From: Sipunculus nudus
Taxonomy: Eukaryota > Annelida > Sipuncula > Golfingiida > Sipunculidae
Direction: 5' to 3'
DNA length: 64,000 nt
Assembly (NCBI GenBank): GCA_026874595.1
Contig: CM049310.1
Coordinates: 4,030,001 to 4,094,000, forward strand
Below the pieces are notes generated by a model. That model was not told where the DNA came from and ran no database searches. It saw only the letters and a program-made list of their open reading frames with translations. The position numbers and the translations under genes were made by a program. Shown one piece after another: positions 15,769 to 59,513 of this stretch (its first letter is position 1; every line of letters begins with the position of its first letter).

Positions 15769-18700
15769 GATAGATAGATAGATATATAGATAGATAGATA
15801 GATAGAAGGACTAATTTATTCATTTTGAAAAGTCTGAACATTTAAGATCTGATTCATTTATTGATTTATGGTAAGTACATAAACTGATTTACTCATGATG
15901 GTAAGTATGAATACAAGGACCAATCAGTGTTGTGATGATAAGTATGAACATATAATGACCTGGCTCTAACAATTCTTGTGTTACAGGAGCACCAGGTAGG
16001 CAACAAGAATGTTGTGATCAGTGAGACCAACATCAAACAGACGGTGTACATCTACAAGTGTCAGGACACCACGGTCCAGGTCAAGGGCAAAGTCAACAGC
16101 ATTGTCGTTGGTAAGAAAAACTTTATATATTAAAGTCTAGTGTATAATCTGTTTTTGGATTGGGACAGTAAGATAGGGTTTTGATAGACCCTGTGTGAAG
16201 TTTCCCAAATAATGTCAGATTCCTCATTATTCAGGGGAGTATATATCCCCCCTTAGGACACACTTCAAGGCCAAAAACTGGCATTTCCATGAAGACCACA
16301 GAGGACTAACCACCGTCAACCACAGTAATTTATCATCTTTCACTTAAAGGTGCCCATTCACCTATCTTTTGAAAAAGAATTAAAATAATTTCTGGCTTCC
16401 TCTGTGTATATATTAATGATCTACAATAATTCTGGGTTTGTAAACTTCTTATAATGCCTATGTAAAGAATGTATGAACTTGTTTATCAACAACATGTTTG
16501 TAAACACAGCAATGTTGACAAATGGGAAAACATGTAATCTAAAGCGATAGGTTGCATATATGTATATAGGTAGAAAGGTCACTCATCGCAAAACGCCATT
16601 TGCAAAGCTCTTGCTGATCAGACTTGCCACCAGATGCCTTTGTTGAATTTGTTTTATTTTGGCCGGCCCCCACATATTATAAACATGTTGATATAAACAA
16701 GAAAAGCAGCCTGTGTGTGGGGTTATTCACTTTTTCTGGCATATTTAATTCAAGGGATTACCTTTAGTTTATAAAGGTCAGCTAAGTGATTAGGCCCCTT
16801 TAACTGGTAATATGTATTGCGATACCTCAAAAACCATTCCTTAGGTACATTTAAGGTTAGATGCTGGATGTATCTGTGGAGAATCCACATAGTGTAAATG
16901 AGTACCAGCCATGATGGTATTTACAGATCATAGTGTAAATGAGTACCAGCCATGATGGTATTTACAGATCATAGTGTAAATGAGTACCACCCATGATGGT
17001 ATTTACAGATCATAGTGTAAATGAGTACCAGCCATGAAGGTATTTACATGATCATAGTGTAAATGAGTACCAGCCATGATGGTATTTACAGATCATAGTG
17101 TAAATGAGTACCAGCCATGATGGTATTTACAGATCATAGTGTAAATGAGTACCACCCATGATGGTATTTACAGATCATAGTGTAAATGAGTACCAGCCAT
17201 GAAGGTATTTACATGATCATAGTGTAAATGAGTACCAGGCATGAAGGTATTTACATGATCATAGTGTAAATGAGTACCAGCCATGATGGTATTTACAGAT
17301 CATAGTGTAAATGAGTACCAGCCATGATGGTATTTACAGATCATAGTGTAAATGAGTACCACCCATGATGGTATTTACAGATCATAGTGTAAATGAGTAC
17401 CAGCCATGAAGGTATTTACATGATCATAGTGTAAATGAGTACCAGCCATGATGGTATTTACAGATCATAGTGTAAATGAGTACCAGCCATGATGGTATTT
17501 ACAGATCATAGTGTAAATGAGTACCACCCATGATGGTATTTACAGATCATAGTGTAAATGAGTACCAGCCATGAAGGTATTTACATGATCATAGTGTAAA
17601 CGAGTACCAGCCATGAAGGTATTTACATGATCATAGTGTAAATGAGTACCAGCCATGATGGTATTTACATGATTAAATACTTAATTCCTTGTTGTGGAAA
17701 ATGTTATTAGTCTGAACCCTAAATGCATCAACAAATACATCAAGTAAAATTCAGTGAACCTGAAATGTTTTTAGCTCAGCTGACTATAAGTCATCTGAGC
17801 TATAGTCGTGGTCCATTGTCCGTCGTCCGTCCGTCTGTCCGTCCGTCCGTCCGTAGATGTGGCACGTTTTGAAACCGTAAGACCTAGGAATCCAAAATTC
17901 AGCATAATGTTAGATGTCCCCAAGATCTCCTACCAAGCCGAAAACTGGGTCTTTGCGACTTCGTTCCTTTGAGAAATTAAGGAAAAACCTCAATTTTTTA
18001 TTAAAATCCTATTTTCACACTTCAGGACTGCCTAATATCAAAACCACTCATCTGTTTTTCCTCATATTTACCATAAATATTCTTCCATATAGTTCCTATG
18101 TACATGCCAGAAATTAAGTCTGTTAAGTATAAATTCTTTAAGTTATGGGCCCAAACATAATGGACTTTGTAAAAAATCAGGAAAAATATTTACTCACTTA
18201 ACATGAAAAATTTTGAAACTAGAGTCTATTTTCCTAAGTATATAACTATGTTTAATTAAGATTCAATTGCTTACCAAAAATTAAATCTGAATTTTGTAAA
18301 TTTTTTAAGTAATTAGCATAAAAATAAAATCAGTACCTTAAATTTTGCCCAACTTTGACCATGGCACGTTTTTTTCCTGTAAGTACCATTGATTTAATTT
18401 TCACAGCATGTAAACATAAATATTTAATTTGTTTAAATCTGAAATTTGGAAATAAAAGCTTGAAAATTAAGCTAGTTATTGATTTTTTTCTTGAGGCTCT
18501 ATTGTAGTCATTTGCTTTGATTAGAGGTTACAGATGCAGGGTCCCACTCCAGGTCACTGGAAGTCAGCTATGCCAGGGTTTCTGATTTGTTACAGTCACT
18601 GGGGGAGATCCCCTGCTGTGACAGGTGTACAGTTATTCTCATATCACCACCCCCAATATCACCCCCCCCCCCCCCCCCCCGCAAACCCAACCCACCAAGT

Positions 18701-21700
18701 GTTATGCAGTATTGTTATTGTTTTCACTGTATCTCCTTAATTGTATTGCTGTTTCCACTCTAATATGCAAAAACTTTCCATGAAAAAGTAATTCAAAGTG
18801 TTATCCAGAAGATGCAATGTTGTGTAATGTAGCATTTTTAAAGAAATCATTTTTCTTTTAAATCATTTTACCAATCATAATGGAACCCATCAGTATGCTT
18901 AAATTATGATAAAATATGAAGCACATTATGGATAAATAAAGACACAATTAAAAATTGTGAAATCTTAATCAAGTATTTTTTTAGATCTTTATTGTTTTGC
19001 AGATTTAAAAGATATATTTTTGTGGTAAAAAATAAATAAACATTTGTATGCATGATGTGGTGTTATCTGACAAGATTGAGATTTATGATGATGCAATTGA
19101 GAATTATGAATCAACTTTTATATTCAGATATATATGTTATATTGAAAATGTATAGATATATAAACTTAAATTTAAAAAAAAAATTGATGTGATAAAAAAA
19201 TGAGGATTTATTACAAACATTTGTTCATTATTTTCCTGCATCAGCAGAATTTGAGATCAGGCTTTGTTTGCCATGTTTTATGTTGTTAATTAGTTATATT
19301 TCAACTGTATACATTTCATAAAAAAAAACATATATTTAATAATATATATTATACAAAAAAAAGATTCCATTGAACAAATGTTTAAACTACTGAAATGTCA
19401 ACAGTTAATCGAAAAGCCAACTAATGATCATGGTAATTGTACAGATCATTTGTTCACAAACTGCTCACATGCTTCAGTTTCAACATTAGGAAACACATGG
19501 TCAGGTCACAAAATATTATTTGCAACAATTTCTTGCTCATCAATACAAACCAATCATATAAACCAACCATGGCCTTTATTACCTCTTCCTCTTACACTTT
19601 ATCTCCATTTGATTTTATTTTAGATTTTTACCTTCAAGGTTAACGTCAGCTGAGCACAGTGACCCATAGGTCCCTTGTTCAGTTCAATTTTAATGATAAA
19701 GAAGTAAATCATATCATTCATTACTAATCATTAGGGATCATATGAAGGAAATTAATGATAGACAAAGATGCAGTTGATAATATTAATCTAGATTCCTACT
19801 GTGTCTAGTGTGTACATTGATGTGAAATTAGTCCAAAATGAATTTATTACAGTTATTTTTTAATATAAATAAAAGCCATAAAACCAGGTACTTATGATCA
19901 TTATATTATTTAAATGTGTGAATTTTGTATATTCTGGATTCTCAACATCATTGTTTGGTGAAAACTGAATAAACACCAGACATGGTGCGAATACTTTGTA
20001 ATTGTATTTAAATACGAATATGATTATGTACTCCATTATAAAATTTCTTGCATAAAGAATGGGAATTCAGGTAAAAATGAAAGTATATGAATACCAGTGC
20101 AAATACTTTCAAAATGTATTCATGAATGCATTCATGAATATATTCTTTAATATTATTTTAATAATCATTTCAGTTATATTTCATTTTAAAAAATCATATG
20201 ATTCTCTTATTATTTTTAATAAAAATTATATTTGGGGCAATATTTGTAATTTTTTTAATTGGTAGTTAAACCCTTATATTATATATTCTGCTCTTAAGTT
20301 ATATGGCCAAGTCAGAATCTGTGTGACAGTAGTACTCCATTTGTTAATAAAATAAATGAAATCAATCCTCTTCCCTGTCTCCAAAGGTACTATCAAAATC
20401 ATACATAATCTAAACAACAACAACTCATAATACAGCTTATATTTATTACCACACAAAACCAGCATGTGCCTCATTTCTAAATAATATTTTTTTATCATAT
20501 ATAACAGCTGAGCGTCGTGACCCATAGGTCCCTTGTTATGCTTTGAACTAGATGTGCCAACTCATGTATTGTTATTCCAAATTTCTAATGATACATGCAT
20601 ATTCACAAACAGACCCAAACCTTTGTACCTAAGTGCAGTTGATTTTAATGACATCTAATATTCCTCTTTTGTCACATTTGTTTGAGTTACCATTTAAATG
20701 GTCAATAATTGCCTTAAATTGTCACATTCTCCACTGTATCATGCTAATTATTTTGTTCAGAAAATCCTTTGAAATGTCCTGGAATTTTGTCAGCTTTTAT
20801 GTTTATGGACCCTGTATTTCAGTTATACACTAAAACTTTCTTGTCCAACAGTTCAAAATGATCATGTCTTCTCCCTTCTTGTTTGAGATGATGAAATTGT
20901 CACTCAGGCGTAATAATCACTCATGTGCATTAGTGTTTGTTTTAAGAAGTAATTGTCACTGACAAGTCATATTTTGTAAACCCAAGTTTTTAGCTCAGCT
21001 GACTATAAGTCATCTGAGCTAAAGTCGTGGTCCATTGTCCGTCGTCCGTCCGTCTGGCCGTCCGTCTGTCCGTTCTTCCGTCTGTCCGGATGTCTGTCCG
21101 TAAGACTGGCATGTTTCGACACCATTGGACCTACGAATCTGAAATTCGCCATACAGTTAGATGTTCCCAAAATCTCCTACCATGCCGTAAATTGGGTCAA
21201 TAGGACTTCGTTCCTTTGAGATATTAAGGAAAAACCTCAATTTTTTATTAGAAATCTATTTTCACACTTCAGGACTGCCTAATATCAAAACCACTCATCT
21301 GGTTTTCTTCATATTTACCATAAATATTCCTCTATATAGTTCCTATGTACATGCCAGAAATTAAGTCAGTATTATTTAATTTTAAAAAGTTATGGGCCCA
21401 AACATAATGGACTTTGTAAAAAAATCAGGAAAGATATTTGGTCACTTAAGACCAAAAGTGTTAAAGGTAGGGACTTTTTTTCAGTAATGCAACTTTAATT
21501 GATCAAAATTTAATTGTATATCAAAAATTAGATCAAAATCTGTTAAATTTTTTTAAATATTGGCAAAAATATAAAATTGGTACCTTAAATTTTGCCCAAG
21601 TTTGACCATGGCACATTTTTTTCCTGTAAGTACTGTGGATTTAATTTTCACAGCATGTTTTTGTTAGCATTTTGTCTGTTAACACCAAAAATTTGAAACC

Positions 21701-24700
21701 AGTTGATCAAAAACTGTAGATTTTATTCAAGTTTTCAAGCACCATGTCACATCAAGTTTACATCAAGCTAGTGTTATGCAGTTTGCTAGAACTCAGCTTC
21801 CCAGCTTCAGCTCTAAGTTCCTTAAATTTAGCATACAGTTAGATGTCTCCAAAATCCCCTACCATGCCAAGAATTAGATCACTAGGACTTAATTCCTTCG
21901 AAATATTAATGAAAAACTTCATTTTTCCATTAAATATTCCATTGTTCCACTGTAAGACTGCCTTATATCAAAACCACTGATCTGACTTTGATCATATATA
22001 ATATACATATTTTTCTATACATTCCCTATGCACATGGCAGAAATGATGTCAGTATTGCGTAATTGTTTTAAGTTATGGGCCCAAACATAATGCACTTTTT
22101 AAAAAATCAAGAAATATATTTACTCCCTGAACAAGAGGATTGCTGAAGCTAGAGATTTTTTGTCAGGGATGTAACATTTTTTAATCAAGATTCAATTGAA
22201 TACCAAAAATTAGTGCTGAATTTTTCAAATTTTATAAGTTATTAGTATAAATATAAAATTAGTACCTTAAATTTTGCCCAACTTTGACCATGGCACGTTT
22301 GTTTCCTGAGAGCACTGTTGATATAATTTTCATATTATGCACACATAAGGATTTCATCTTTGTAGTTTAGAAAGCTGAAAGAAATTGGTCAAATATTGTA
22401 GCTTTTATTAATGTTTTTATGAGACCATGCCAGACCCAGGCTTAATCCAGCCCCTCTTCAGTCACCTGTATGTTGACCTTGTTGACCTTTCATCAGATTA
22501 TGCATGCTTGAGCGAAGCATACACTGGGGCAGCCAGGCAGCTAATGCCCAGCCACAGTTGATCCAGGTTTCCAACCCAACTCATCTAGTAGTTGTTTTGA
22601 AAAACAACATAACAATAAACAATAAATTAATAATTTTGTATTGTTTTTTTTTTTTATAACAAATTAAAGAAAAATTTATAGAAAAGGAATTTGTTATTTG
22701 ATGAGTAACAGAAAATTAACTTGCAGCTACTGATGATGTAAGAATCTTGTATGGATGGATACAATGTCATTGTCAATGTTATTCAAAATAACACCATGCA
22801 GTCACCTATGGTATTTTTCAGTGAAATTTTAATGATAAAAAAATAAATCATATTATCCATTACTAATCATTAGGGATCATATGAAGGAAATTAATGATAG
22901 ACAAAGATGCAGTTGATAATACTAATCTAGATTCCTACTGTGTCTAGAGTGTAGATTGATGTGAAAGTAGTCCAAAGTGAAAATATATTACATTTATATT
23001 TTTAACATAAATAAAAGCCATAAAACCAGGTATTTCTGATCATTATTGTATCCCCAGACAAAGTGGGGTGATACTATGTTTTCATACCGGTCCCGCCGCC
23101 GCCGCATATAAATCTTGTTGGCGCGATAACTCAAAAAATATTTCACGGATCTTAACCAAACTTGGTATATGTTGGATATTGGTGAGAGGACGACGCCTAT
23201 TTAAAATGAGGTCATGACCTTGACTAGGAGAGTGTCCTTGACCTTGAATAGGACCAATTTTGGGGAAAATCACACAAATTCTTAAATATCTCAAGAAATC
23301 TTGCATGGATTGATCCCAAAATCAAGTTGATGGAAGATCATGGATAGGGTTGTCATGTTCCAGAAACTGGTGGCGCCACCTATTATACTTTACTTGTTTT
23401 TGTGCCGTTTAATACCCCCAAAATTGCTACTTGACAGTACTGTGAGCATTATAAGTCAAAAACTAAAGGACAGATTTCTTTTATATTATGCATATACATT
23501 GAAATGGGTTAGGGGATGATGTATATTGAAATTGGGGTCATGACCTTTTCCATGAGAGTGACCTTTTCTATGAGTGTGATCTGATGTTAATTTTTGCTGA
23601 AGATTGGGGGCCTATTCTTAAAGGGGGGGGGGATTAATTGTCTGGGGATACTATGGCACCTGCGGTGCCAAGAAATATCTAGTTTAAATTTGTGAATTTT
23701 GTATATTCTGGATTCTCAACATCATTGTTTGGCTAAAACTGAATAAATACTAGACATGGTGCAAATGCTTTGCAAATGTATTTGAATACGAATATGAATA
23801 TGTACTGCATTAAAAATTTTATTGCATAAGAATGGGAATTCAGGTAAAAATGAAAGTATTTGAATACCAGTGCAGATACTTTCAAAATGTATTCATGAAT
23901 GCATTCATGAATATATTCTATAATATTATTTCAATAATCATTTCAGTTATATTTTATTTAAAAAATCATATGATTTTCTTATTATTTTTTTTAATAAAAA
24001 TTATATTGGCACAATATTTGTTATTAAATCTTAATAAATAGTTAAACTCTTTTATTATATGTGCTGCTTATAAGTTATATGGCCAAGTCAAAATCTGTGT
24101 GACAATAGCACTCCATTTGTTAATAAAATAAATAAAATCAATCCTCTTCCCTGTCTCCAAAGATACTATCAAAATCATACATATGCTAAACACCAACAAC
24201 TCATAATAAAGCTTATATTTATTACCACACAAAACAAGCATGTGCCTCTTTCCCAAATCATATTTTTTATCATATATAACAGCTGAGCGGTCCCTTGTTT
24301 ATTCTCACAGATGGCTGCAAGAAAACTGCCCTTGTGTTTGAGAATGTTGTGGCTGCCGTGGAGTTTGTGAACTGCCAGAGCGTCCAAGCACAGGTCTATT
24401 GTTACAAATTTAACATATCATTTCTTAAAGAAATATAAATGAGCACAGGTTAGGCCAAAAAAAATTAAAGGTATGGTTCTCAGGCACCGCTCGCATCAAT
24501 TTTAAACCCCCGCATCAAAAATTTTTATTTTGATTTTCAAAAAAAACTTTCCAAATTTGAGCTGCTGTCGCTCAGACATTTCTTTCAAGAAGATAAAACC
24601 ATACAATTTCCTTTGTTTTGTAGTGCTTTTACTTATTTAGCAAAATAAAACTGTTATTTTCATGATATTCCCTTTTCATTTGACATTTTTATCGAAACAT

Positions 24701-27700
24701 ACCAAAAAATTTAAAATAAAAAAAGCGCCCGCCCGCATTGATTTCTGAAAAAAAGTGCCTGAGAACCATGTTTTTTTTTTATTTTGGCTTTAGCTTTCAT
24801 TGTTGTTTTAGTTTTAATGTATCCCTTTCTTCAACAGTATTTTAATATTTTAGAGGAAATATGAATGATCACAAGCATATTCAGATCATAGAAGGTCTTT
24901 TTCCTTCATTGTTATGTGGTATGATACCTTTTCAAAAGAAAAAAAAGGTTAAGTCATACTATACACTTGTTATGATGTAAGTTTTATACTCTTTGAATAG
25001 TTGACAGACTCAAGAAAATTAACACAGTTGTTATTATTAATATGACTCAAAGTTCAGAGTATGCAAGATCTTTAAAAAATGTTAGAAATGGGTATTTCAA
25101 AATGGAAGGAATTTTTTTTTCACAGTATCATCCAGTGTTCATACTACAGACCATAACAGCTCAGAGGGGGATGGTCATACTCTCAAATTCTTTCATGTAT
25201 CCCCCTGTGAGGATGTGGTGACATATAAATTACTGAATATACAACAAGATATTATAAAAAGTGTACGCCCACCTGATAAACCCCCCCCCCACCTCCTTTC
25301 ACCTGATCCCCCTTATCAAGCTTTCCTGGGTTCCTGCACAGTCCTGCTTCAGTAACATGGAATTCACCTGGAAAGATGCTTTACAATGGCTTGCTCTAAT
25401 AGCTATGAATGGAGCAACGTCCCTGTGGAAAAAGAAATCGCCCTGTGTCTCCATGGTATAAAAGGCTGGCCCCAATAGCTATGAATGGAACAGCGTCCCT
25501 GTGGAAAAAGGAATCACCCTGTGTCACCATGGTATATAAGGATGCCCCCATTAGCTATGAATGGAGCAGTCTCTCTGTAGAAAAAGGAATCACCCTGTGT
25601 CACCATGGTATATAAGGATGCCCCCATTAGCTATGAATGGAACAGCGTCCCTGTGGAAAAAGGAATCACCCTGTGTCACCATGGTATATAAGGATGCCCC
25701 CATTAGCTATGAATGGAGCAGTCTCTCTGTAGAAAAAGGAATCACCCTGTGTCACCATGGTATATAAGGATGCCCCCATTAGCTATGAATGGAGCAGTCT
25801 CTCTGTAGAAAAAAGAATCACCCTGTGTCACCATGGTATATAAGGATGCCCCCATTAGCTATGAATGGAGCAGTCTCTCTGTAGAAAAAAGGAATCACCC
25901 TGTGTCACCATGGTATATAAGGATGCCCCCATTAGCTATGAATGGAGCAGTCTCTCTGTAGAAAAAAGGAATCACCCTGTGTCACCATGGTATATAAGGA
26001 TGCCCCCATTAGCTATGAATGGAGCAGTCTCTCTGTAGAAAAAGGAATCGCCCTGTGTCACCATGGTATATAAGGATGCCCCTATTAGCTATGAATGGAG
26101 CAGACTCTCTGTAGAAAAAGGAATCACCCTGTGTCACCATGGTATATAAGGATGCCCCCATTAGCTATGAATGGAGCAGTCTCTCTGTAGAAAAAGGAAT
26201 CACCCTGTGTCACCATGGTATATAAGGATGCCCCCATTAGCTATGAATGGAGCAGTCTCTCTGTAGAAAAAGGAATCGCCCTGTGTCACCATGGTATATA
26301 AGGATGCCCCCATTAGCTATGAATGGAGCAGTCTCTCTGTAGAAAAAGGAATCGCCCTGTGTCACCATGGTATATAAGGATGCCCCCATTAGCTATGAAT
26401 GGAGCAGTCTCTCTGTAGAAAAAGGAATCACCCTGTGTCACCATGGTATATAAGGATGCCCCCATTAGCTATGAATGGAGCAGTCTCTCTGTAGAAAAAG
26501 GAATCACCCTGTGTCACCATGGTATATAAGGATGCCCCCATTAGCTATGAATGGAGCAGTCTCTGTGTAGAAAAAGGAATCACCCTGTGTCACCATGGTA
26601 TATAAGGATGCCCCCATTAGCTATGAATGGAGCAGTCTCTCTGTAGAAAAAGGAATCGCCCTGTGTCACCATGGTATATAAGGATGCCCCCATTAGCTAT
26701 GAATGGAGCAGTCTCTCTGTAGAAAAAAGGAATCACCCTGTGTCACCATGGTATATAAGGATGCCCCCATTAGCTATGAATGGAGCAGTCTCTCTGTAGA
26801 AAAAGGAATCACCCTGTGTCACCATGGTATATAAGGATGCCCCCATTAGCTATGAATGGAGCAGTCTCTCTGTAGAAAAAAGGAATCACCCTGTGTCACC
26901 ATGGTATATAAGGATGCCCCCATTAGCTATGAATGGAGCAGTCTCTCTGTAGAAAAAGGAATCGCCCTGTGTCACCATGGTATATAAGGATGCCCCCATT
27001 AGCTATGAATGGAGCAGTCTCTCTGTAGAAAAAGGAATCGCCCTGTGTCACCATGGTATATAAGGATGCCCCCATTAACTATGAATGGAGCAGTCTCTCT
27101 GTAGAAAAAGGAATCACCCTGTGTCACCATGGTATATAAGGATGCCCCCATTAGCTATGAATGGAGCAGTCTCTCTGTAGAAAAAAGGAATCACCCTGTG
27201 TCACCATGGTATATAAGGATGCCCCCATTAGCTATGAATGGAGCAGTCTCTCTGTAGAAAAAGGAATCGCCCTGTGTCACCATGGTATATAAGGATGCCC
27301 CTATTAGCTATGAATGGAGCAGTCTCTCTGTAGAAAAAGGAATCACCCTGTGTCACCATGGTATATAAGGATGCCCCCATTAGCTATGAATGGAGCAGTC
27401 TCTCTGTAGAAAAAGGAATCACCCTGTGTCACCATGGTATATAAGGATGCCCCCATTAGCTATGAATGGAGCAGTCTCTCTGTAGAAAAAGGAATCGCCC
27501 TGTGTCACCATGGTATATAAGGATGCCCCCATTAGCTATGAATGGAGCAGTCTCTCTGTAGAAAAAGGAATCGCCCTGTGTCACCATGGTATATAAGGAT
27601 GCCCCCATTAGCTATGAATGGAGCAGTCTCTCTGTAGAAAAAGGAATCGCCCTATGTCACCATGGTTATATAATGGTTTGAAGTATAAATTTTTTTATGG

Positions 27701-31450: not shown

Positions 31451-31740
31451 TTTTATCATCTTTTAGTTTATGCACCAAGAGTTGTTTCATTTATCACATT
31501 TGCAAGTTCACTCTGATAAAAAAATGTAGAAGACGACTTTACAATGTACGACCGCCCGAGAGTTATCACAGGTGATTTTTCTGCACGAAATCCCTGAACT
31601 GTCTTGTTAAATTCAAAGTAATTATGCGGAATAAGAATATAGTAAGTGCATTTTTACACATAAATGCACATGGAAACGCAGCTTCAAATTAATAATAGTT
31701 TCCACTAATGAAGCATTAAATTTAAACATCAGATTTATTT

Positions 31741-31956
31741 AGCTCGGCTGACTGAAAGTCAACCGAGGTAAAGGTATAACGCTTTGTCGTTGTCCGTCTA
31801 TCCATCCGTTAGCAGGGCACAAATCGTAACTGCTGACCCTAAAAACCTGTAACTTAATATCCAAGGAGGTCAACAAATCTCAGAAAACTTAAATAAGGTC
31901 ACTGCGACCTTTATCCTCCGAGCTATAGGGCTTGTAAGTACCCCCTCCCAGAATAA
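31741..31956. mobile_element. Hairpin-ended repeat fragment (AGCTCGGCTGACT)
   Basis: A hairpin AGCTCGGCTGACT GAA AGTCAACCGAGGT is followed by TTGTCCGTCTATCCATCCG, the same layout as the AGCTCAGCTGA family but a different sequence. It is cut at 31956 by the TTAA-flanked element. Possible continuation lies after 37699, where GTCCATCCGTCTATCTGTC and a CATCTAG|T end (near 37770) occur. Confidence 0.55.
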
Positions 31957-37250: not shown

Positions 37251-38264
37251 GTGAAGGCTAAGCACAAAACGGAACGAGCTAATGGCCCCTCCCAGCTTGC
37301 TCGCCTCACGCAAACAAAGTTGACACATTTCTTCAAACGTTCTGGCTGGCTCAAAGGAAACCTGTGTAAACTCACACCATCGTTATTTTAACTATTAACG
37401 ATCGGACGCAATACAGGAAAAGGTAAACCTATTGTCATGAATTCTCACATGTGGCTTTGTTATGACCGACTGCCGTTCCTGAGCTGACGTCATTCCGAAT
37501 ATTAATGAGGCACGGAACCGATCATTGCCGAACGCGGACAGGGTAATACCAAGCATCTTAGAGCTCTTATTAGACGCGTTTTTAATTACTTTAGACCAGT
37601 AGTAACGACTACACTCAGAGCCAAAAGTTACAAAAACAATTCATTTACGGGATAATATGATCAAATTGCGGTTTTATTTACGCTGGTCATGTCCTTTAAA
37701 ACATTGATACAAAACCTCCAGTATCTTTATGACAGCAATCATGTCCGTTTCTCAGCTGTGATTTCATCTAGTGTCCCAAAACCTGATTTGTTCATTGATC
37801 GGAAACTTATGCCCTATAGTAATCACCCAGTCCATCCGTCTATCTGTCGACACAAATTTGTATCGTGATGATAACGCCTGGTTGGATTGACATGGATTTC
37901 AAACTTGACTTCTGTATGGACGAGAACAAAAGCAAGAATCCATATGATTTTTGGGTCATGTAGTCAAAGGTAAAGGTCGCAGGACCCCCTAATTTGAAAG
38001 AAGATTATGGCTGCATTTTAAGCCAGTTTTTAGCTCAGCTGACTATAAGTCATCTGAGCTATAGTCGAGGTCCATTGTCCGTTGTCCGTTGTCCGTCCGT
38101 CTGTCCGTCCGTCCGTAGATGTGGCACGTTTTGAAACCGTAAGACCTCGGAATCCAAAATTCAGCATAGTGTTAGATGTCCCCAAGATCTCCTACCAAGC
38201 CAAAAACTGGGTCTTTGTGACTTCGTTCCTTTGAGAAATTAAGGAAAAACCTCAATTTTTTATT

Positions 38265-41200
38265 AGCTCAGCTGAGCTATAGTCGTGGTCCATTGTCCGT
38301 CGTCTGTCCGTCTGTCTGTCCGTCCGTCCGTCTGTCCGTCCGTCTGTCCGTCTGGAGGTCCGTCCGTAAGACACGCACGTTTCGACACCGTTGGACCTAC
38401 GAATCTGAAATTGGGCATACAGTTAGATGTCCCTAAAATCTCCTACCATGCCGAAAATCGGGTCAATATAGGACTTCGTTCCTTTGAGATATTAAGGAAA
38501 AACCTCAATTTTTTATTAGAAATCTATTTTCACACTTCAGGACTGCCTTATATCAAAACCACTCATCATATTTACCATAAATATTCCTCTATATAGTTTC
38601 TATGTACATGCCAGATATTAAGTCAGTATTATATAATTTAAAAAAGTTATGGGCCCAAACATAATGGACATAATCAGGAAGATATTTGGTCACTTTAGAC
38701 CAAAAGTGTTAAAGGTAGGGACTTTTTTCCAGTAATACAACTTTAATTAATCGAAATTAAATTGTATACCAAAAATTAGATCAAAATCTGGTAAATTTTT
38801 TTAAATATTGGCAAAAATATAAAATTGGTACCTTAAATTGTGCCCAACTTTGGCCACATCACGTTTTTTTCCTGTAAGTACTGTGGATTTAATTTTCACA
38901 GCATGTATACATAAGGAATTAATCTGTTAAAATCCGAAATTTGAAAATAAAAGCTGCAAAATTAGGCTAGTTATTGAATATTTTTGGAGGCTCTTGTTGT
39001 ATTCCCTTACATTGTCAAGCAGTCCACTTTGATGACTGTAGGTCATTCAGTGCACATCTCTATGCTCCCCAGGCTGTTGGCATAATTTTAGATGTCCCCA
39101 AAATCTCCTACCATACCAAACATTTGGTCATTAGGACTTCGTTCCTTCGAGATATTAAGGAAAAAAACTGTTTTCCATAAATAAAAGCCATTGTTACACT
39201 TCAAGGCTGCCTAATCTCAAAACCACTGATCTGTTTTTGATTGTATTAAGTATTCACTTTCTTTCATACATTTTCTACGAACATACCAAAATTAGGTCAG
39301 TATTGGGTATTATTTTGAAGTTATGGGGCAAAACATAATGCAATTTTAAAAAAAATCAGGAAATATATTTACTCACCTAACATGAGAATTGCTGAACCTA
39401 GAGACTTTTTTTCAGGAATATAACTTTATTTAATCAAGATTCAAGTGTTTACCCAATATTAGATCTGAATTTTGCAAATTTTTCAAGTTATTAGCATAAA
39501 TAAAAAATCAATACCTTAAATTTTTGTCCAACTTTGGCACTGTTGATTTAATTTTCACAGCATATATACATAAGGATTTAATCTTTTAAAATCTGAAATT
39601 TCAAAGAAATTGATTTGAAAGAATAGCTTTTATTCATGTTTTCATACACCATGTCAAGTGTTGTTTACATCTAGCCCACCTAGTAGTTCAGCCTTCACTT
39701 GCATTATGTAACCCACCCCAGGCAGCTTGCCTTGGGTCAGCTTGGCCACTACCAGCAGGCTTCCCCTCTGCCTTGCACCCCACCCACCCCCAGCAGGTGC
39801 ATAAACTAGATGAATGTTATTATTTTCTGTATTTGATTCATTCTTATTCTAGGCTATGCTACATTTTAGATTTTGTATTTTACCACCAGGGTTACAGTGA
39901 TTAAAGTGTACATTTAATTGTGTCCACAAAGTGGTGTATTGCTATGAAAGTGTGGATGTTCATGAGATAAGTAATTCCTTACTTCAGAGGAGTAAAAACT
40001 TCACCAGGTGTGAAATTGAGTATTAATTCCAGTAATAAATTAAAACTGGGATAGTAATTAGCACAATGATATTGTTTGTCCCTCATTCAACCAACAGTGT
40101 GTTTACTTTATTTGAAAAGATGTTTTATTTTATCAAATTTACTGAATCTTTTATTTTATTTTGGTGAATAAAATTAAGCATGTACTGAAAACTCCAATGT
40201 GCAAAACTTTTTAATAGTGATTCAAGGAATATTCTTGTAGATGCCATGTTGTGGCATTATTTTCTTTTAAATTCAGTTTAAACATTTATGATTTAAAAAT
40301 AATAAAATATATGTGTATGCATAATATGACCCAATATGAGCTACACTCTGGATATATGATGATTGCAACTTTTGCAACAATTCTAATATTTTAACTTATA
40401 GTTTCAGTTTTTTACTCTGTATATATAATGATTGCAACTATTGTAACAATTCTAATATTTTAACTTAAATTTCAGGTTTTTTTATTAAAAATTTATAAAA
40501 CCTGTAAATAAAAGAATGATTCAGATATAAACTTCTTAATGGAAAAAGTGGATATGCTTAAAAAAATAGGATTATATATAAACTTAAATGCATTATTCCC
40601 TTGAAAGTGAAATAAAGGTATTAGTCCATTCTGTCAACTTGCCTGTCCATCTGTAAATTTTCATATGCATCACAGTATCTCAAAACATTTACTGTTTTTC
40701 TTCATGACAGTCTTGTCAGAGTATTAATTGCAATCATATATTTAGAACTTATGCATCACAGTATCTCAAAACATTTACTGTTTTTCTTCATGACAGTCTT
40801 GTCAGAGTATTAATTGCAATCATATGTTTAGAACTTTACTGTAACCAAGTAGGAGGGCCCCTTTCCTCTTAGCTTTTCATATTCTTATATAAATGAAAAA
40901 CATTTACAATAGAATATTTCTACATCCACCTTCGTGCTGCCCTCACTTTTCCCTTCTCCGAACCCCATCCTAAAGTCAGCCTCAGTAAGCAAGAATAAGA
41001 TGAATCAGATATATTCATACTTTAATATTTTGTATAACTATTCGTCCATAGGTACCTGTGTACATGCCAGAAATTATGTCAGTATTGTGTAATATGTAGA
41101 CATAGTGGGCATCACAATAATGTACCTTGTCAAGACTAAAGAGATATTGTGTCATACAGTCACAAATTCATGAATCACTTCATCAGCATAGTTAATTATA

Positions 41201-41573
41201 ACATCATATCTGTCAAATTGAAAGCTTGCAGACTACCATACACTTTAGATCCTTCAACAAATAGCCTTATCATCATTCTACTACTGCTTATTACTGCTGT
41301 CATTGCATTCACATTTGCTCAAATATTTCACAATTTTCAACCCCTCCTAAATAAATAAAAAATAAACCACTATATTTGACTCTATTAATCCATCAGTCAG
41401 GTAATTTCATTTATCATTTACTCACATATTACATTAAATTCCTTTATAATAGCCCAACATGTCCATGATATTCATAAGCTTTATCGACTTGATATACATG
41501 TAGTATCACAGTGGAGAAACATTTATAGTCCAATCATGATCAGCTGAGCGCCGTGACCCATGGGTCCCTTGTT
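38265..41573. mobile_element. Second copy of the same family nested inside the first
   Basis: The insertion starts with a perfect AGCTCAGCTGAGCT palindrome (a shortened form of the usual hairpin), then the TCCG/TCTG run, and ends CAGCTGAGCGCCGTGACCC then GGTCCCTTGTT. It sits between ATTTTTTATTA and AAAACCTATTTTC, which are adjacent in the 17773 copy. TTA on both sides may be a short target duplication. It has an internal duplicated half like the 20992 copy. Confidence 0.78.
40320..40840. repeat. Two local tandem duplications
   Basis: A diverged duplication at about 40355-40490 repeats GATTGCAAC then CAATTCTAATATTTTAACTTA. A nearly perfect 86-bp duplication starts ATGCATCACAG at 40665 and again at 40751. 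Both lie within the inner nested element. Confidence 0.8.
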
Positions 41574-42390
41574 AAAACCTATTTTCACACTTCAGGATTG
41601 CCTAATATCAAAACCACTCATCTGTTTTTCCTCATATTTACCATATATATTCCTCTATATAGTTCCTATGTACATGCCAGAAATTAAGTCTGTTAAGTAT
41701 AAATTCTTTAAGTTATGGGCCCGAACATAATGGACTTTGTAAAAAATCAGGAAAAATATTTACTCACTGAACATGAAAAATTTTGAAACCAGAGTCTATT
41801 TTCCCCAAGTATTTAACTATGTTTAATTAAGATTTAATTGTTTACCCAAAATTAGATCTGAATTTTGTAAATTTTTTAAGTTATTAGCATAAAAATAAAA
41901 TCAGTACCTTAAATTTAGCCTAACTTTGACCATGGCACGTTTTTTTTCTGTAAGTACCATTGATTTAATTTTCACAGCATGTAAACATAAATATTTAATT
42001 TGTTTAAATCTGAAATTTGAAAAAAAGCTTGAAAATTAGGCTAGTTATTGATTTTATTTCTTGAGGCTATATTGTAGTCATTTGCTTTGATTACAGATTA
42101 CAGATGCAGGGTCCATCTCCATATCACCATCCCAATCCCCCCCCCCCCCCCCCCCCCGGCAAGCCCAACCCACCAAGTGTTATGCAGTAATGGTTATTGT
42201 TTTCAATGTATTTCCTTAATTGTAACGCTGTTTCTACTTCAATATACAAAAACTTTCCTTGAAAAAATAATTCAAGTGTAATCCAGAAGATGCCATGTTG
42301 TTATGCCCCCGCCACAAAGTGGCCGGGGCATATAGTTTTACCCATGTCCGTCATTCCATCATTCCGTCATTCCGTCATTCCGAAATCAAA

Positions 42391-42945
42391 CAGTTGTACG
42401 GATTTTTTTTCGCAATGCCTGCAGATATTGGCCTGATTTTTGGTGTGTGGGCAGATAATGACCAGTTACAGATCGAGTTCGCGTTTCGTCCCGGTTGACC
42501 TACTTTTGAGCGTTTTACGGCTCCTAAACTTAGAAAATTTCATGAAAAATAGAAATTTTCATGACAAATACACATGTACGGACTTTTTTTCGCAATGCCT
42601 GTAGATATTGGCCTGATTTTTGGTGTGTGGGCAGATAATGACCAGTTACAGATCGAGTTCGCGTTTCGTCCCGGTTGACCTACTTTTGACCGTTTTACGG
42701 CTCCTAAACTTAGAAAAATTCATGAAAAATAGAAATTTTCATGACAAATACACATGTACGGATTTTTTTTCGCAGCGCCTGCAGATATTGACCTGATTTT
42801 TGGTGTGTGGACAGATAATGACCAGTTACGGATCGAGTTCGCGTTTCGTCCCGGTTGACCTACTTTTGACCTTTTTACGGCTCCTAAACTTAGAAAAATT
42901 CATGAAAAATAGAAATTTTCATGACAAATACACATGTACAGTTGT
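42391..42945. repeat. 180-bp tandem units
   Basis: Units starting near ..CATGTACGGA at 42391, 42571, 42751 and 42931 have a period of exactly 180 bp and differ at few positions. Two more diverged units resume after the insertion, at about 43622-43970. They form the core of the TTATGCCCCC element. Confidence 0.9.
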
Positions 42946-42949
42946 TTTT

Positions 42950-43621
42950 AGCCCTCAGCTCATAGGCTGATGGGCTATTGTCGTCACCCAAGGTGTCCGT
43001 CTGTCCATCTGTCTGTCCGGTGTATGTCCGTCCGTCCGTCCGTTCCGTGTCTGTTAACTTTTACATTGTGAGCGGGATATCTCTAAAAGGATTCACCGTT
43101 GGAATTTTTTTTCATCAGTGAAGATGTATATCGATAAAATCTCGGTCAAGTTCGAAGATGGGTGACCTTGACCCATTTTTCTACATTTTAGAGCTGATTA
43201 TAGAAAAACACTCAGAAGTTTATATCTCAGGAATCATTGTGTGGATTTTCACAAAACTTACTATGATCATTGGGACTGATGGTCTGTATGTGCTGCACAA
43301 TTTTGGTGGCGCCACCTGCAATTTCTGATTTTTAATGAAATTTTATCTGATTTTTCAATTTTGGCCTTTTGTGCAGAATATCTTCAAAGGTATTCAACAC
43401 AGGAACTTCATTTCTTCAGTGTTATTGCATTATATTTACAAAATCTTGGTCAAGTTCAAGATGGGTGATCTTGACCTACTTTTCAAGCTCACAGAGCTTT
43501 GTATAGAAAAAAACTTAGGAGCTTATTTCTCAGGAAGCATTTGGTGGATTGTTATGAAACATGGTATATACCTCTCCAATTTAAATTTATAAATGATTAT
43601 CAACTTTTGCTAATATTCTAG
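42950..43621. mobile_element. Third-level insertion, AGCCCTCAGC hairpin element
   Basis: It starts with the hairpin AGCCCTCAGC TCATAG GCTGATGGGCT, then GTCCGTCTGTCC-type microsatellite, and ends ATATTCTAG. It interrupts the T-run of a 180-bp unit (host sequence resumes TTTCGCAATGC). It contains the phrase TTGGTGGCGCCACCT also seen at 23370 and 47364 in other elements. Confidence 0.7.
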
Positions 43622-45200
43622 TTTCGCAATGCAATGCTTACAGATACTGGCCTAATGTTTGGTCTGTGGGCGCATAATGACCACTTACAGATCGAGTTCG
43701 CGTTTCGTCCCAGTTAACCCTTTTTTTCACCATATGACAGATCCTGAACATAGAAAATTTCAGAGAAGACAGAAATTTTCATGAAAAATGCACATATATG
43801 GACTTTTTTCTTCACAATGCCTGCAGATACTGGCCTGATTTTTGGTGTGTTGCTTGATAATGACCCTTTACAGATCAAGTTTGCATTTTGCCCTTGTTGA
43901 CCTACTTTTAACCATACAACACTTCCTGAACTTAAAAAAAATTACAAAATTTAACAAATGTTTCTAATTTGCCCCAGGTGGGGGCATTCGTGTCGTTCCG
44001 ACACATCTAGTGTTAATGTAGCATTTTTAAAGAAATCAGTTTTCTTTTAAATGATTTTAACAAATAAAATTGAACCCATCAATATGCTTAAATTTATAAA
44101 ATATGAAGCACATTATGGATAAATGAAGACACAATTAAAAATTGTGAAATCTAAATCAAGTATTATTTTTAGATATTTATTGTTTTGCAGATTTAAAAGA
44201 GATATTTTTGTGGTAAAAAATAAATAAATAAACATTTGTATGCATGATGTGGTGTTATCTGACAAGATTGAGATTTATGATGATGCAGTTGAGAATTATG
44301 AATCAACTTTTATATTCAGATATATCTGTTATATTGGAAATGTACAGAAATATAAACTGAAATAAAAAAAAATTATGTGATAAAATAAAACAAACATTTG
44401 TTCATTATTTTCCTGCCTCAGCAGAATTTGAGATCAGGCTTTGTTTGCCCTGTTTTATGTTGTTAATTTGTTATATCTCAACTGTATACATTATAAAAAA
44501 ATGCATATATATTTAATAATATATATTATACAAAAAAATAGATTCAATTGAACAAATTTGTAAACTACTGAAATGTCAACAGTTAATCAAAAAGCCAACT
44601 AATGATCATGCTTCAGTTTCAACATTAGGAAACACTTGGTCAGGTCACAAAATATTATTTTCAACAATTTCTTGCTCATCAATACAAACCAATCATATAA
44701 ACCAACCATGGCCTGTATTACCTCTTCCTATTACACTTTATCTCCATTTGATATTATTTTAGATTTTTACCTTCAAGGTCAACTTCAGCTGAGCCCAGTG
44801 ACCCATGGGTCCCTTGTTTTTTCACCCCAACATATCTGTAGATCTTTCATTGTTAATCTAATTATCCATTAAATTATAGAGACATTGATCAGACGTCTAA
44901 TTATAATGCCCAGAAGGCCTATATCTGTCATGGTATTCTGCATGTTTTTCATTATTTACCAAAATATTAAAAATGTAGGCTCACTTCATGTCCTTTTCTC
45001 CAAATTCCTATGTACTGTATATGGATATTTATATTTCATTCACAGCTGATGCTGTTGGATGTTTAAATGTTATTGTCAAGTAGATGGAAACTCCATTGTA
45101 ATACCATTACACTCTTCCATAAGCTTTAGATTTAATATATATAATATATTTAAAATATATATATCATTATGAACAATGTGCGCTGCCTAGACCACAGCAG

Positions 45201-47511: not shown

Positions 47512-48034
47512 TACTGCCTATACGGAGAGTTACTGCCTATACGGAGAGTTACTGCCAATACGGAGAGTTACTGCCTATACGGAGAGTTACTGCCTATTCG
47601 GAGAGTTACTGCGTATACAGAGAGTTACTGCGTATACGGAGAGTTACTGCCTATACGGAGAGTTACTGCGTATACGGAGAGTTACTGCCTATACGGAGAG
47701 TTACTGCCTATTCGGAGAGTTACTGCCTATTCGGAGAGTTACTGCCTATACGGAGAGTTACTGCGTATACGGAGAGTTACTGCGTATACGGAGAGTTACT
47801 GCCTATACGGAGAGTTACTGCCTATTCGGAGAGTTACTGCCTATTCGGAGAGTTACTGCCTATACGGAGAGTTACTGCCTATACGGAGAGTTACTGCCTA
47901 TAAGGGAGTTACTGCCTATACGGAGAGTTACAGCCTATACGGAGAGTTACTGCCTATACGGAGAGTTACTGCCTATACGGAGAGTTACTGCCTATACGGA
48001 GAGTTACTGCCTATACGGAGAATTACTGCCTATA
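47512..48034. repeat. 19-bp minisatellite, about 27 copies
   Basis: The unit TACTGCCTATACGGAGAGT repeats every 19 bp with variants (GTATACGG, CTATTCGG, CCAATACGG) and one shortened unit near 47895. Since 19 is not a multiple of three, one frame cycles through all three phases of the unit; none contains a stop, giving a 210-codon frame (47417-48049) with a 19-residue protein period. No family, splice or Kozak support exists for a real protein. Confidence 0.92.
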
Positions 48035-49400
48035 CTGGTTTCATTATAAAGACCAATAATTCAACCAGAAATATACGAAGATAACAATGTCAAGTTAGAT
48101 AAAGTACTAGGCACTAACGACAAGCGCGACATTAAATACTTTATCGTCTCTTAGACAGGCTTGGAATTCCTACTGTAATTTCAACAGTTATTCCTTCAGT
48201 TAAAATACTTCGGTTTGTGAAAATTTACAGAACAAGTATAAACATTAGTATTCTACTTCTTGAGTAATAAATTAACCTTTTGTCTTAAAGTTATGATTTC
48301 GAAAGATATTGTGAAAGGTCCTAGCTAAACATAGGAAAATAACAGTAAACATACTGCCTGCAGGGAGAGTCGGCGCTGGTCTGAATCTTCTTGACATTTC
48401 GTCCTGAGCATTCGCGGTGACCACAACTTTCCGCTCTATTACACTTGTTCATCACGACAGTTAATGAAAATCAAAATCAGTCCTGAGGCGTAAAACTGGT
48501 TTACAACCAATAACGACCAGTGAGATAGCGAAATGGCCAGCGAAATGGCCATTGTAATTAGTTTGATCGGCCTTCACCTGCTGTCATCCGGTAAACGTTG
48601 TCCCTTACCGATGCCCTTTAGGAAAAAAAAAAAAAAGGCTGCCCTTACCAAGTGACGCACCGGGTTGCCTTTGATAACACACGTAACACCGGGATGTAAC
48701 ACTGTCCTGTATTCATGGAGCTTCTATAATCCTCAATCTCTCTCTGTTCATACACGTTTCACAGTCCCCCAGTCTCTCACAGCTGATGTCTTCTGATGGT
48801 ACCAGAATAAGCTTCTACACAGCAATATCCTGTATCTCTACGGTAAAGTACATATAAAGTCCACGGTTTGTTCCTAGAATCGCATACAACAAGTATCAAC
48901 ACGCCAGATTACCAGTCCGTCGGCAAAATGCGTTACTAGCTCTGAGGTTCTTTTCAGAGAAATCACTTGTGGCCTTCACCAGACGTCGTCTAACTTCACT
49001 TGTAGAAACACATCTCAGCTGTCTCCACTGTAACAAAAGCAGAATTGCTTTAGGTATCGTCAGTCTACAACTCACCGGTAAGCTGAAACGGGCCCTTCTC
49101 CCGAAAAAGTCCCACTTAACTCCTTATAAATGCCTTCTTACGTCACAACTCCCGATTGTCCTCCGGCCAATCATTACTCCAAATTACTCCGAATATTAGA
49201 TATAAAGAATAAAGAAAACGCCTCTAACAACAGAGTGTGAGAAAACCTAACTTACACAGGTGCACTTTCTTTGAAATCTACTACACACACTAGTGATCAA
49301 AAAAATGGTGGCTCCGTCTAAATTAAGCTGTACTGAAATAACATCTGACGAGACACGTGTTTCCTTTAACCAACTATCTGTGTTTGATTATGTGGACTAT
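48035..49400. other. No gene recognised
   Basis: About 1.3 kb of unique-looking sequence. It has an A14 run near 48618 and a CT-rich stretch near 48740. On the minus strand ATTGGCC and TTTATAAGG occur near 49130-49180, a CCAAT/TATA-like layout, but no transcript or repeat end can be shown. A short frame starts at 49293 and runs into the TA microsatellite. Confidence 0.4.
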
Positions 49401-56689: not shown

Positions 56690-59513
56690 GTTCTCCCCCA
56701 CTTTGCTAGAATAATCAAAAAGGAAATTCGTGGAATTAATGTCCCCCACTTTGCGATCTTGTTGTTTTTCATTCTTGATAAAGGACGGTCAGACAGAGTG
56801 ACAGACAGACAGAAGCCAGACACTCCAAAAAAATCCCAACCAGGGTATGCATGAGAGCAATCGCTGACCAAAATTTTAATGAAATCGGATAATATTTAGG
56901 AAAGTTATCCCACAGAAACAAAAACCTGACAGAGTGACAGACAGACCGACGAACATAAGCCAGACACTTCATGACAAATCCAAACCAAGGTAAGCATGAG
57001 AGCAATCACTGACCAAAATTTGAATGACATCGGATAATATTTAAGAAAGTTATAGCAGGGAAACGGAAACCTGACAGACGGATAGACAAAGTGACAGACA
57101 GACAGGGAAAAGCCAGACACTCCAAAACTGATCCAAACCAAGGTTTGCATGAGAGCAATCACTGACCAAAATTTGAATGAAATCGGATAAAATATAGGAT
57201 AATTATCGCACGGAAATGAAAATCTGACGGATTGACAAACAGGGTGACAGACAGACAGACAGACAGACAGATGCCAGACACTCCAAAACTAATCCCAACC
57301 ATAGTAAGCATGAGATCGATCACTGACCAAAATTTGAATGAAATCAGATAATATTTAGGAAAGTTATCGCAGGGAAACGAAAACCTGACAGACAGACAGA
57401 CAGACAAAGTGACTCACAGACAGACAGAAGCCAGACACTCCAAAACTAATCCCAACCATAGTAAGCATGAGATTGATCACTGACCAAAATTTGAATGAAA
57501 TCGGATAATATTTAGGAAAGTAATTGCACAGACACGAAAACCTGACAGACGGACAGACAGAGTGACAGACAGACAGACAGACAGAAGCCAGACACTGCAA
57601 AACCAATCCAAACCAAGGTAAGCATGAGAGCAATCACTGACCCAAATTTGAATGAAATCGGATAATATTTAGGAAAGTTATCGCACGGAAACGAAAACCT
57701 GACAGACGGACAGACAGAGTGTCAGCCAGACAGACAGCAGCCAGACATTCCCGAACTAATCCCAACCAAGGTAAGCATAAGAGCAATGACTGACCAAAAT
57801 TTGAATGAAATCGGATAATATATAGGAAAGTTATCGCATGGAAATGAAAACCTGACAGACAGATAGACAAAGTGACAGACATACTGACAGACAGACAGAA
57901 GCCAGACAATGCAAAACCATCCCAACCAAGGTAAGCATGAGAGCAATCACTGACCCAAATTTGAATGAAATCGGATAATATTTAGGAAAGTTATCGCAGG
58001 GAAACGAAAACCTGACAGACAGACAGACAGACAAAGTGACTCACAGACAGACAGAAGCCAGACACTCCAAAACTAATCCCAACCATAGTAAGCATGAGAT
58101 TGATCACTGACCAAAATTTGAATGAAATCGGATAATATTTAGGAAAGTAATTGCACAGACACGAAAACCTGACAGACGGACAGACAGAGTGACAGACAGA
58201 CAGACAGACAGAAGCCAGACACTGCAAAACCAATCCAAACCAAGGTAAGCAGGAGAGCAATCACTGACCCAAATTTGAATGAAATCGGATAATATTTAGG
58301 AAAGTTATCGCACGGAAACGAAAACCTGACAGACACACAGACAAAGTGACAGACAGAAAGACAGACAGAAGCCAGACACTCCAAAACTAATCCCAACCAT
58401 AGTAAGCATGAAATTGATCACTGATTAAAATTTAAATGAAATCGGATAATATTTAGGAAAGTAATTGCACAGACACGAAAACCTGACAGACGGACAGACA
58501 GAGTGACAGACAGACAGACAGACAGAAGCCAGGCACTGCAAAATCAATCCAAACCAAGGTAAGTATGAGAGCAATCACTGAACAAAATTTGAATGAAATT
58601 GGATAATATATAGGATAATTATCGCACCGAAGTGAAAATCTGACTGATTGACAAACAGGGTGACAGACAGACAGACAGACAAACAGAGTGATGCCAGACA
58701 CTCCAAAACCAAAACCAACCATAGTAAGCATGAGATCGATCACTGACCCAAATTTGAATGAAATCGGATAATATTTAGGAAAGTTATCGCACGGAAACGA
58801 AAACATGACAGACAGACAGACAAAGTGACAGACAGACAGACAGACAGAAGCCAGACACTCCAAAACTAATCCCAACCATAGTAAGCATGAGATTGATCAC
58901 TGACCAAAATTTGAATGAAATCGGATAATATTTAGGAAAATTATCGCACGGAAACGAAAACCTGACAGACAGACAGACATGTGACTCACAGACAGACACA
59001 AGCCAGACACTGCAAAGCCAATCCCAACCAAGGTAAGAATGAGAACAATCGTTGACCCAAATTTGAATGTAATCGGATAATATTTAGGAAAGTTATAGCA
59101 CGGAAACGAAAACCTGACAGACAGACAAAGTGACAGACAGAAAGACAGACAGAAGCCAGACACTCCAAAACTAATCCCAACCATAGTAAGCATGAGATTG
59201 AACACTGACCAAAATTTGAATGAAATCGGATAATATTTAGGAAAGTAATTGCACAGACACGAAAACCTGACAGACGGACAGACATAGTGACAGACAGACA
59301 GACAGAAGCCAGACACTCCAAAACAAATCCCGACCAAGGTAAGAATGAGAGCAATCGCTGACCCAAATTTGAATGAAATCGGATAATATATAGGAAAGTT
59401 ATCGCACGGAAACGAAACCTGACGGACGGACAGAGAGACAGACAGACAGAAGGACAGACAGACAGACAAACCCAAAACAATGTTCCCCCGCATCCGCGGA
59501 CCGGGGAACAAAA
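56690..59513. repeat. Array of ~155-bp units with (CAGA)n and a hairpin end
   Basis: About 17 units repeat GCCAGACACTCCAAAACTAAT, TGACCAAAATTTGAATGAAATC and GGATAATATTTAGGAAAGTT, each ending in a (CAGA)n run. A 627-bp higher-order step makes about 57350-57706 and 57977-58333 nearly identical. The right end is a hairpin, GTTCCCCCGCATCCGCG..GGGGAAC (59492-59513). On the minus strand it reads as hairpin plus TCTG microsatellite, as in the other hairpin-ended families. The left edge has TTCTCCCCCACTTT. Minus-strand frames are spurious. Confidence 0.88.

Follow-up and report, generated by a model that had tools for sequence, protein, structure and literature searches.

In the present study, we analyzed the repeats in a 64,000-nucleotide stretch of the genome of Sipunculus nudus (C5:4030001-4094000; hereafter, the window). 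Most of these repeats look like non-autonomous Helentrons (HINEs), that is, non-coding rolling-circle elements of the Helitron superfamily. As the best explanation of the whole, we consider it very probable that the window repeats are HINEs and that a large Helentron of the same genome, which bears the ends of the repeat family F1, mobilises F1 in trans. The genome searched amounted to 1.43 Gb in 153 contigs. The repeats are labeled here by their 5' motifs as F1 (AGCTCAGCTGACT), F2 (TATGCCCCC), F3 (AGCCCTCAGC), F4 (GTTCCCC, on the minus strand), F5 (AGCTCGGCTGACT), and F6 (TGTATCCCC). Three lineages are well supported (F1, F2, and F6), and to these are added a relative of F1 (F5), an internal segment of F2 (F3), and one unproven array (F4).

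A first-pass annotation of the window had listed at least five unrelated families that share one terminal design. The 5' motifs were found where it had placed them, at 17773, 20992, and 38032 for F1, 31741 for F5, 42950 for F3, 42302 for F2, and 59509 on the minus strand for F4. Its families F1 and F2 hold, but the count of five does not, because F5 is related to F1, F3 lies inside F2, and the F4 hairpin has only two matches in the genome. In addition, F6, which possesses the cleanest 3' end, was left out of that list.

The layout published for HINEs is present in the window. That is, a 5' subterminal inverted repeat (subTIR) with a hairpin is followed by a pyrimidine microsatellite, a tandem core, a 3' inverted repeat, and a 3' stem-loop, and the element is inserted at T. 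Copy a of F1 (17772..19677, plus strand) consists of the 5' hairpin and subTIR, a GTCY microsatellite at 17818-17854, the body, the 3' subTIR, a short 3' stem-loop, and the end CTTG/T, where the slash marks the end of the element. The full-length F2 (42302..44010, plus strand) begins with the TATGCCCCC hairpin and continues with an TCCGTCAT microsatellite at 42347-42382, 180-bp repeats, a 3' subTIR, and a 6-bp stem-loop before CTAG/T. The full-length F6 (23047..23682, plus strand; 636 bp) has the TGTATCCCC hairpin, a (CCG)n stretch, a 12-bp perfect 3' subTIR, a 7-bp stem-loop, and CTAG/T.

We compared the fold of each 5' end with those of 500 shuffles. For F1, F2, F5, and the common form of F6, none of the 500 shuffles folded as well as the 5' hairpin. 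The hairpin of the window copy of F6 is weak and has three mismatches, and 35 of 500 shuffles folded as well. The 5' ends of F3 and F4 also fold, with geometries that differ from those of F1, F2, and F6. When the 5'-end patterns were searched genome-wide, 41,515 ends were counted for F1 (up to 2 mismatches allowed) and 4,548, 3,604, and 2,499 ends for F2, F3, and F6, respectively (up to 3 mismatches, as also for F4). The backward patterns of F1, F2, F3, and F6, used as a control, gave no match in any case.

A scan for a hairpin followed by a GTCY microsatellite gave four hits in the window, namely F4 (59510, minus strand) and the three F1 copies that have a full hairpin, and gave no hit in 30 dinucleotide-preserving shuffles. 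Under its rules the scan missed F2, F3, F5, F6, and the inner F1 copy described below. A microsatellite of the GTCY type is present in F1, F3, and F4, is degenerate in F5, and is replaced by (CCG)n alone in F6. The microsatellite of F2 is a variant, the 8-mer TCCGTCAT, and at least three TTCC/TTCT units were seen in 19 of 30 F2 loci. Two details of the first-pass annotation need correction: no exact (TTCCG)2 was found for the TTCCG microsatellite that it reported, and the microsatellite starts about 12-22 nt beyond the hairpin rather than directly after it.

Then the complement of each 5' arm was sought near the 3' end over 16 positions, with 2000 shuffles as the reference. The number of matching positions was 14 for F6 (no shuffle as good), 12 for F1 copy a (3 shuffles), 11 for F1 copy c (34 shuffles), and 11 for the inner F1 copy (43 shuffles); at the tentative 3' end of F4 it was 11, with 2 of 2000 shuffles as good. 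This 3' subTIR is located about 20-40 nt inside the end of the element. The 3' stem-loop measures 6 bp in F2, 7 bp in F6, and 4-5 bp at four of five F1 ends. Ends in CTAG/T were confirmed for F2 (44010), F6 (23682), and the F3 segment (43621); F1 ends in CTTG/T, and a CTAG/T variant occurs in the large Helentron copy HD.

We also applied a sequence-blind rule for the whole element, in which a 3' stem-loop is followed by CTWG/T and accompanied by an upstream repeat matching the 5' hairpin arm. In its strict form the rule found F6 alone in the window. In a form relaxed once the ends of F1 and F2 were known, it found six ends (four of F1, one of F2, and one of F6). On the reversed-sequence control, both forms found none.

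Several results at the 3' side count against assigning these repeats to HINEs. The 3' subTIR match of F2 is modest (10/16; 58 of 2000 shuffles as good), and those of F1 copy b (9/16; 808 of 2000) and of the additional 3' end that follows copy a (9/16; 829 of 2000) are not above chance. In F3 the 3' subTIR is absent (8/16; 1260 of 2000 shuffles as good). The 3' stems of F1 are only 4-5 bp long, and at two of four ends they are not the minimum-energy fold. F3 has no 3' stem-loop, and no 3' end of F5 was found in the window.

The F1 copies in the window resemble each other and therefore supply empty sites for the F2, F6, and inner F1 insertions. With these duplicates, we obtained empty sites for F2 (in copy a, at about 18822), for F6, and for the inner F1 copy (in copies a and b). 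A fourth empty site was given by F2 in the Helentron copy HD as compared with its sister HC. By eye, at all four sites, the filled site has one extra T and no other duplication. Other small length differences lie near the junction at three of the four (the window F2, F6, and the F2 in HD), and these must be set against the simple picture; they fall in T or A runs or, at the F6 site, consist of an ATTAT that the empty copy has in addition. Among the first 30 exact F2 places listed on C1, T precedes TATGCC in 30 and TTTT in 25. Thus, insertion occurs at T (a T-T target) and leaves no target duplication beyond one T, and the target duplications that the first-pass annotation had named as evidence against its proposal were not seen.

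These sites bear on two other classes of element. If the repeats were miniature inverted-repeat transposable elements (MITEs) of a transposon with terminal inverted repeats and a DDE transposase, inverted repeats at both ends would be expected, as are found here, and DINE-1 of Drosophila has itself been argued to be a MITE (PMC2374699). We regard this as extremely improbable, because the 3' repeat is placed well inside the end, a 3' stem-loop is present, and four of four empty sites are free of any target duplication beyond one T. Derivation from canonical Helitrons (Helitron1) is also very improbable. The stem-loop followed by CTAG in F2 and F6 fits the CTRR end of Helitron1, and one Rep locus of this genome (L002) carries the Helitron-type L. 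However, the repeats have no 5' TC, their target is T-T and not A-T, and subTIRs are present; F1 ends in CTTG, and agreement with CTRR is limited to the CTAG at the ends of F2, F6, and the F3 segment; and 26 of the 27 Rep motifs found are of the Helentron type.

These Rep motifs came from a genome-wide search with the PF14214 profile, which matched at least 143 places, where one element may give two places. Among 30 loci examined, the Rep motif was found in 27; it has the Helentron-type S in 26 and the Helitron-type L in one. The S of this motif is described as diagnostic of Helentrons in PMC4067079. L002 (C11:5901141-5904578) is the sole one among the 27 with the canonical Helitron form RGLPH, and judging from this sequence Helitrons may exist in the genome side by side with Helentrons.

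The check proposed in the first-pass annotation, a search for an autonomous element with matching ends, succeeded for F1. Two sister loci of the L028/L030 lineage, HC on C7 and HD on C3 (L028 lies in HD), share about 25 kb at about 97% identity, and this identity stops at the 3' end of F1. The last 34 bp of HC equal window 41540-41573 (34/34), and the 3' end of HD matches over 33 bp at 97%. At the other side, an F1 5' end is located at HD 524, where 36 bases of a 39-base query were aligned and all were identical. The first 672 aligned bp of the HD unit are 92.7% identical to window 20987-21653, which belongs to F1 copy b. Because the F1 5' end lies at HD 524, the unit is about 28.9 kb long including an F2 insertion (roughly C3:10551023-10579900). 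In HC, the shared body is preceded by about 1.8 kb of F1-type sequence at 93%.

The domains DUF6570, Helitron_like_N, and PIF1 were detected in HC, and Exo_endo_phos and Helitron_like_N (L028) in HD. That is, the Rep, helicase, and endonuclease parts are spread over the two sister copies, and about 20 kb of the large Helentron lies upstream of the Rep frame. From these sequence matches, the HC/HD Helentron of about 28.9 kb is likely the enzyme source of F1.

On the other hand, some findings speak against this assignment. Neither copy is complete: HD has both ends, broken frames, and the F2 insertion, and HC has an open frame of 1658 aa but no 5' hairpin in the sequence fetched. HD also has a second F1-type 3' end (29547-29580), 178 bp beyond the first, so that an outer element could be the owner of the F1 5' end located at HD 524. 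The identity between the two copies starts at HC 1694 and HD 1722, which is 1.2 kb inside the hairpin, and the F1 body matches the HC 3' region at 77% over 174 bp only. In two further Helentrons, HA and HB, none of the families' ends was found within the approximately 5-6 kb fetched on either side; their frames are 2250 and 2235 aa long, respectively, and HA has OTU and endonuclease domains.

The second 3' end and the late start of the identity would both be explained if the F1-ended Helentron were an artefact of nesting, in which the 5' end at HD 524 derives from an outer F1 and the Helentron itself begins with some other 5' end. We think this unlikely for the following reasons. Among F1-like hairpins on the coding strand (arm with up to 3 mismatches), that at HD 524 is the only one in the 34.5-kb stretch with a nearly complete stem (13/14 pairs), and it fits the 3' subTIR. 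Nothing resembling a terminus was seen at HD 1722, and in HC, too, the shared body is preceded by F1-type sequence.

If the F1-ended Helentron is indeed the source, its Rep would nick at the T beside the 5' hairpin, one strand would be displaced until the process stops at the 3' stem-loop and CTWG, and the ends would be joined into a new T site. The F1 copies would thus be moved in trans. F2 and F6, for which no autonomous partner was found, may depend on Reps of other Helentrons in the genome.

The first-pass annotation had suggested a common mobilising machinery that recognises the hairpin and the pyrimidine repeat rather than one sequence. A shared type of machinery, Helentron-like and rolling-circle, agrees with our results. 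In contrast, one machinery that reads structure over sequence is unsupported, because the 3' repeats follow each family's own arm, the large element bears the ends of F1, F6 lacks a GTCY microsatellite, and F2 and F6 have no partner. A narrower form of the idea is that a single Rep serves all families by recognising the geometry of their hairpins, whatever their sequence. An outer stem of 8 bp, a position-9 mismatch, an inner stem of 3-5 bp, and a triloop are indeed common to F1, F2, and the common F6, and all three insert at T and end in CTWG/T. Nevertheless, this is improbable in our judgment, since in each of the three the 3' repeat is similar to the complement of the 5' arm of the same family, the ends present on the large element are those of F1, and several Rep lineages coexist in the genome.

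The 8-bp outer stem, the position-9 mismatch, the inner stem, and the triloop are found in F1, F2, and the form of F6 that is commonest among the F6 rows listed with letters, where the mismatch is C.T, C.C, and A.G and the inner stem is 5, 5, and 3 bp, respectively. The F5 hairpin shows the F1/F2-type geometry plus a second mismatch. By eye, the 5' arm is complementary to the 3' subTIR through position 9, over 11 nt in F1 copy a and 12 nt in F6, and over 11 nt in the four F2 loci of which the 3' end was read, the window F2 having one change. The base opposite position 9, also judged by eye, is a pyrimidine (C or T) in each of the 100 F2 rows listed, and is T, once A, in the F1 rows listed; among the local F1 copies it is T in seven of eight and A in one, which is F5.

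We speculate, at a low level of confidence, that the fixed position-9 mismatch is a shared functional switch by which the 5' arm alternates on single-stranded DNA between the local hairpin and end-to-end pairing with the 3' subTIR, or else a landmark for the HUH Rep, in the way that IS608 TnpA reads its bulged hairpin, and that Helentron Reps may then read geometry first and sequence second. No description of a fixed mismatch at position 9 was found in the available portions of the literature searched on DINE-1, Cg_HINE, and Helentrons.

Regarding the repeats other than the three main lineages, the F5 5' hairpin (31740..31770, plus strand) is related to F1 and is followed by a degenerate GTC run. 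The two hairpins agree at 25 of 31 bases, contrary to the supposed lack of relation among the families. Part of the difference between F5 and F1 is a compensatory stem change (A-T to G-C), and another change breaks the pair at position 3. From this comparison, F5 looks like a relative of F1.

The F3 segment (42949..43621, plus strand) has the AGCCCTCAGC hairpin, a GTCY microsatellite, a body, and the end TTCTAG/T, and it is embedded in the F2 repeats with junctions that are common between copies. To place F3 relative to F2, we used the 100 exact F2 places listed, all of which lie in C1:1-34.1 Mb, and the 35 listed F3 places in that range, leaving out F3 places beyond it. As a result, 22 of the 35 exact F3 5' ends have an exact F2 5' end of the same strand 269-1722 bp upstream of them, at distances that step near the 180-bp F2 repeat, and none has one on the opposite strand. 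Random placement gave a mean of 0.15 and a maximum of 2 in 1000 trials. Three of the other 13 places were sampled, and all three are within F2 repeats with a closely similar 5' junction, so that F3 lies within F2 in 25 of 25 placeable copies among the 35 listed. The 3' junction, AATATTCTAG followed by TTT, is common (up to 5 mismatches) to the window, six further loci, and L076. The F3 hairpin was seen in 11 of 33 F2 copies examined, of which 30 offered only 1,531 bp. Because of this placement downstream of F2 and the shared junctions, F3 is best regarded as a segment internal to F2, which points to a single old insertion, nested in F2 and later multiplied with it. Before that, F3 was probably an independent element; it would have entered the core of F2 once and now travels inside it.

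F4 (56706..59510, minus strand) is composed of the GTTCCCC hairpin, a GTCT microsatellite, and a 157-bp unit repeated 16 times, and its 3' end is tentative (CTAG, then C). The array unit itself contains the GTCT microsatellite, and hence the microsatellite was amplified together with the core. In 1.43 Gb, the F4 hairpin matched the window itself and one other place with 3 mismatches, and for this reason the dispersal of F4 as a family lacks support.

The F1 copies of the window, all on the plus strand, are partly nested. Copy b (20991..24297) holds the F6 insertion, which interrupts it, and its 3' stem-loop is partly deleted. The outer copy c (38031..44816) is interrupted by the inner F1 copy (38264..41571) and by F2. 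The inner copy has a shortened 5' hairpin, AGCTCAGCTGAGCT at 38264-38283, in which the inner stem and the loop are missing. Directly after copy a lies the 3' half of a second F1-type element (19678..20535), which has its own 3' end (CTTG/T at 20535) and no 5' end of its own, and which matches 22814-23046 and 23675-24289 of copy b. The stretch 17772-20535 thus possesses one F1 5' end and two F1 3' ends (19677 and 20535), as if a 3' half had been attached or an end bypassed.

No stop-to-stop frame longer than 364 aa exists in the window, and therefore no intact autonomous copy is present there. A Pfam search of ten window open reading frames gave no family above the curated cut-off. The 364-aa frame (62907-63998) leaves the window and showed sub-threshold coiled-coil matches only. 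Further tandem arrays are located at 25400-27673 (76-bp unit), 16888-17669 (41 bp), 47512-48035 (19 bp), and 9667-10320 (114 bp). By eye, the 120-bp flanks of these four arrays have no obvious HINE ends, except that F1 copy a begins about 100 bp after the 41-bp array.

Elsewhere in the genome, L007 together with L031 and L032 (C8:80130500-80148500) is a Helentron with a 2250-aa frame containing OTU, Rep, PIF1, and endonuclease parts, of which the ends were not found. L015, L016, and L017 (C7:48.52-48.59 Mb) show few or no differences over the compared part of Rep and lie about 30-32 kb apart, which suggests a tandem array of a large Helentron. An exact-pattern search of viral contigs with the F1, F2, and F6 ends gave no match, and none of the papers listed in a literature search with the terminal letters of the families was related.

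The shared end design is already in print for DINE-1 and Cg_HINE. DINE-1 has been described with subTIRs of 13 bp, of which the 5' one adjoins a partial inverted repeat, with a microsatellite rich in GTCY, repeats in the centre, and a stem-loop on the 3' side, and with insertion at TT (PMC2374699); autonomous Helentron partners have been reported in Drosophila (PMC4067079). DINE-1/INE-1 is like the window repeats in its subTIRs, 5' inverted repeat, GTCY microsatellite (here in F1, F3, and F4), variable central repeats, 3' stem-loop, TT insertion, and non-coding nature (PMC2374699; PMC4067079). The sequences differ, however; here several lineages are found in one window and the F1 partner measures about 28.9 kb. 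Cg_HINE of Crassostrea gigas likewise has a subTIR with an inverted repeat, GTCY/GTCC/GTCK microsatellites, satellite-like central repeats, and a 3' palindrome; it inserts at TT, forms both related and unrelated families within the same genome, and includes double arrays (PMC7492417). The likeness of Cg_HINE and of Pearl of bivalves to the window repeats is one of architecture, as described in PMC7492417. According to the same paper, none of 10 autonomous C. gigas Helentrons could be related to its HINEs, whereas here one family, F1, was matched to a Helentron. In the available portions of the literature searched, including PMC7492417, no bivalve HINE matched to its autonomous Helentron was found.

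The HC/HD unit resembles Helentrons in its Helentron-type Rep motif and in the Rep, PIF1, and endonuclease domains over both sister copies. It is longer than the typical Helentron of 6-7 kb and is below the maximum of 39 kb for maize Helitrons (PMC6431247). Helitron2/FoHeli of Fusarium is also similar to the window repeats in having asymmetric terminal inverted repeats with hairpins and T at the target, but it has no endonuclease and its terminal nucleotides are different (PMC5148889).

Taken comprehensively, the observation made in this window is real and of a known kind; the number of families is reduced, a probable enzyme source is named for F1, and one testable structural regularity is added. 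HINEs are very abundant in some invertebrate genomes, the source of their enzyme is often unclear, and the oyster study left this question open (PMC7492417). In Sipunculus nudus, F1, the most abundant family of the window with more than 41,000 5' ends, has both of its ends matched to those of a single very large Helentron. The length of about 20 kb upstream of its Rep frame may be the reason that partners of this kind escape notice. The position-9 mismatch offers a precise and testable hypothesis on what Rep recognises, and if geometry is indeed read first and sequence second, one Rep could serve several families.

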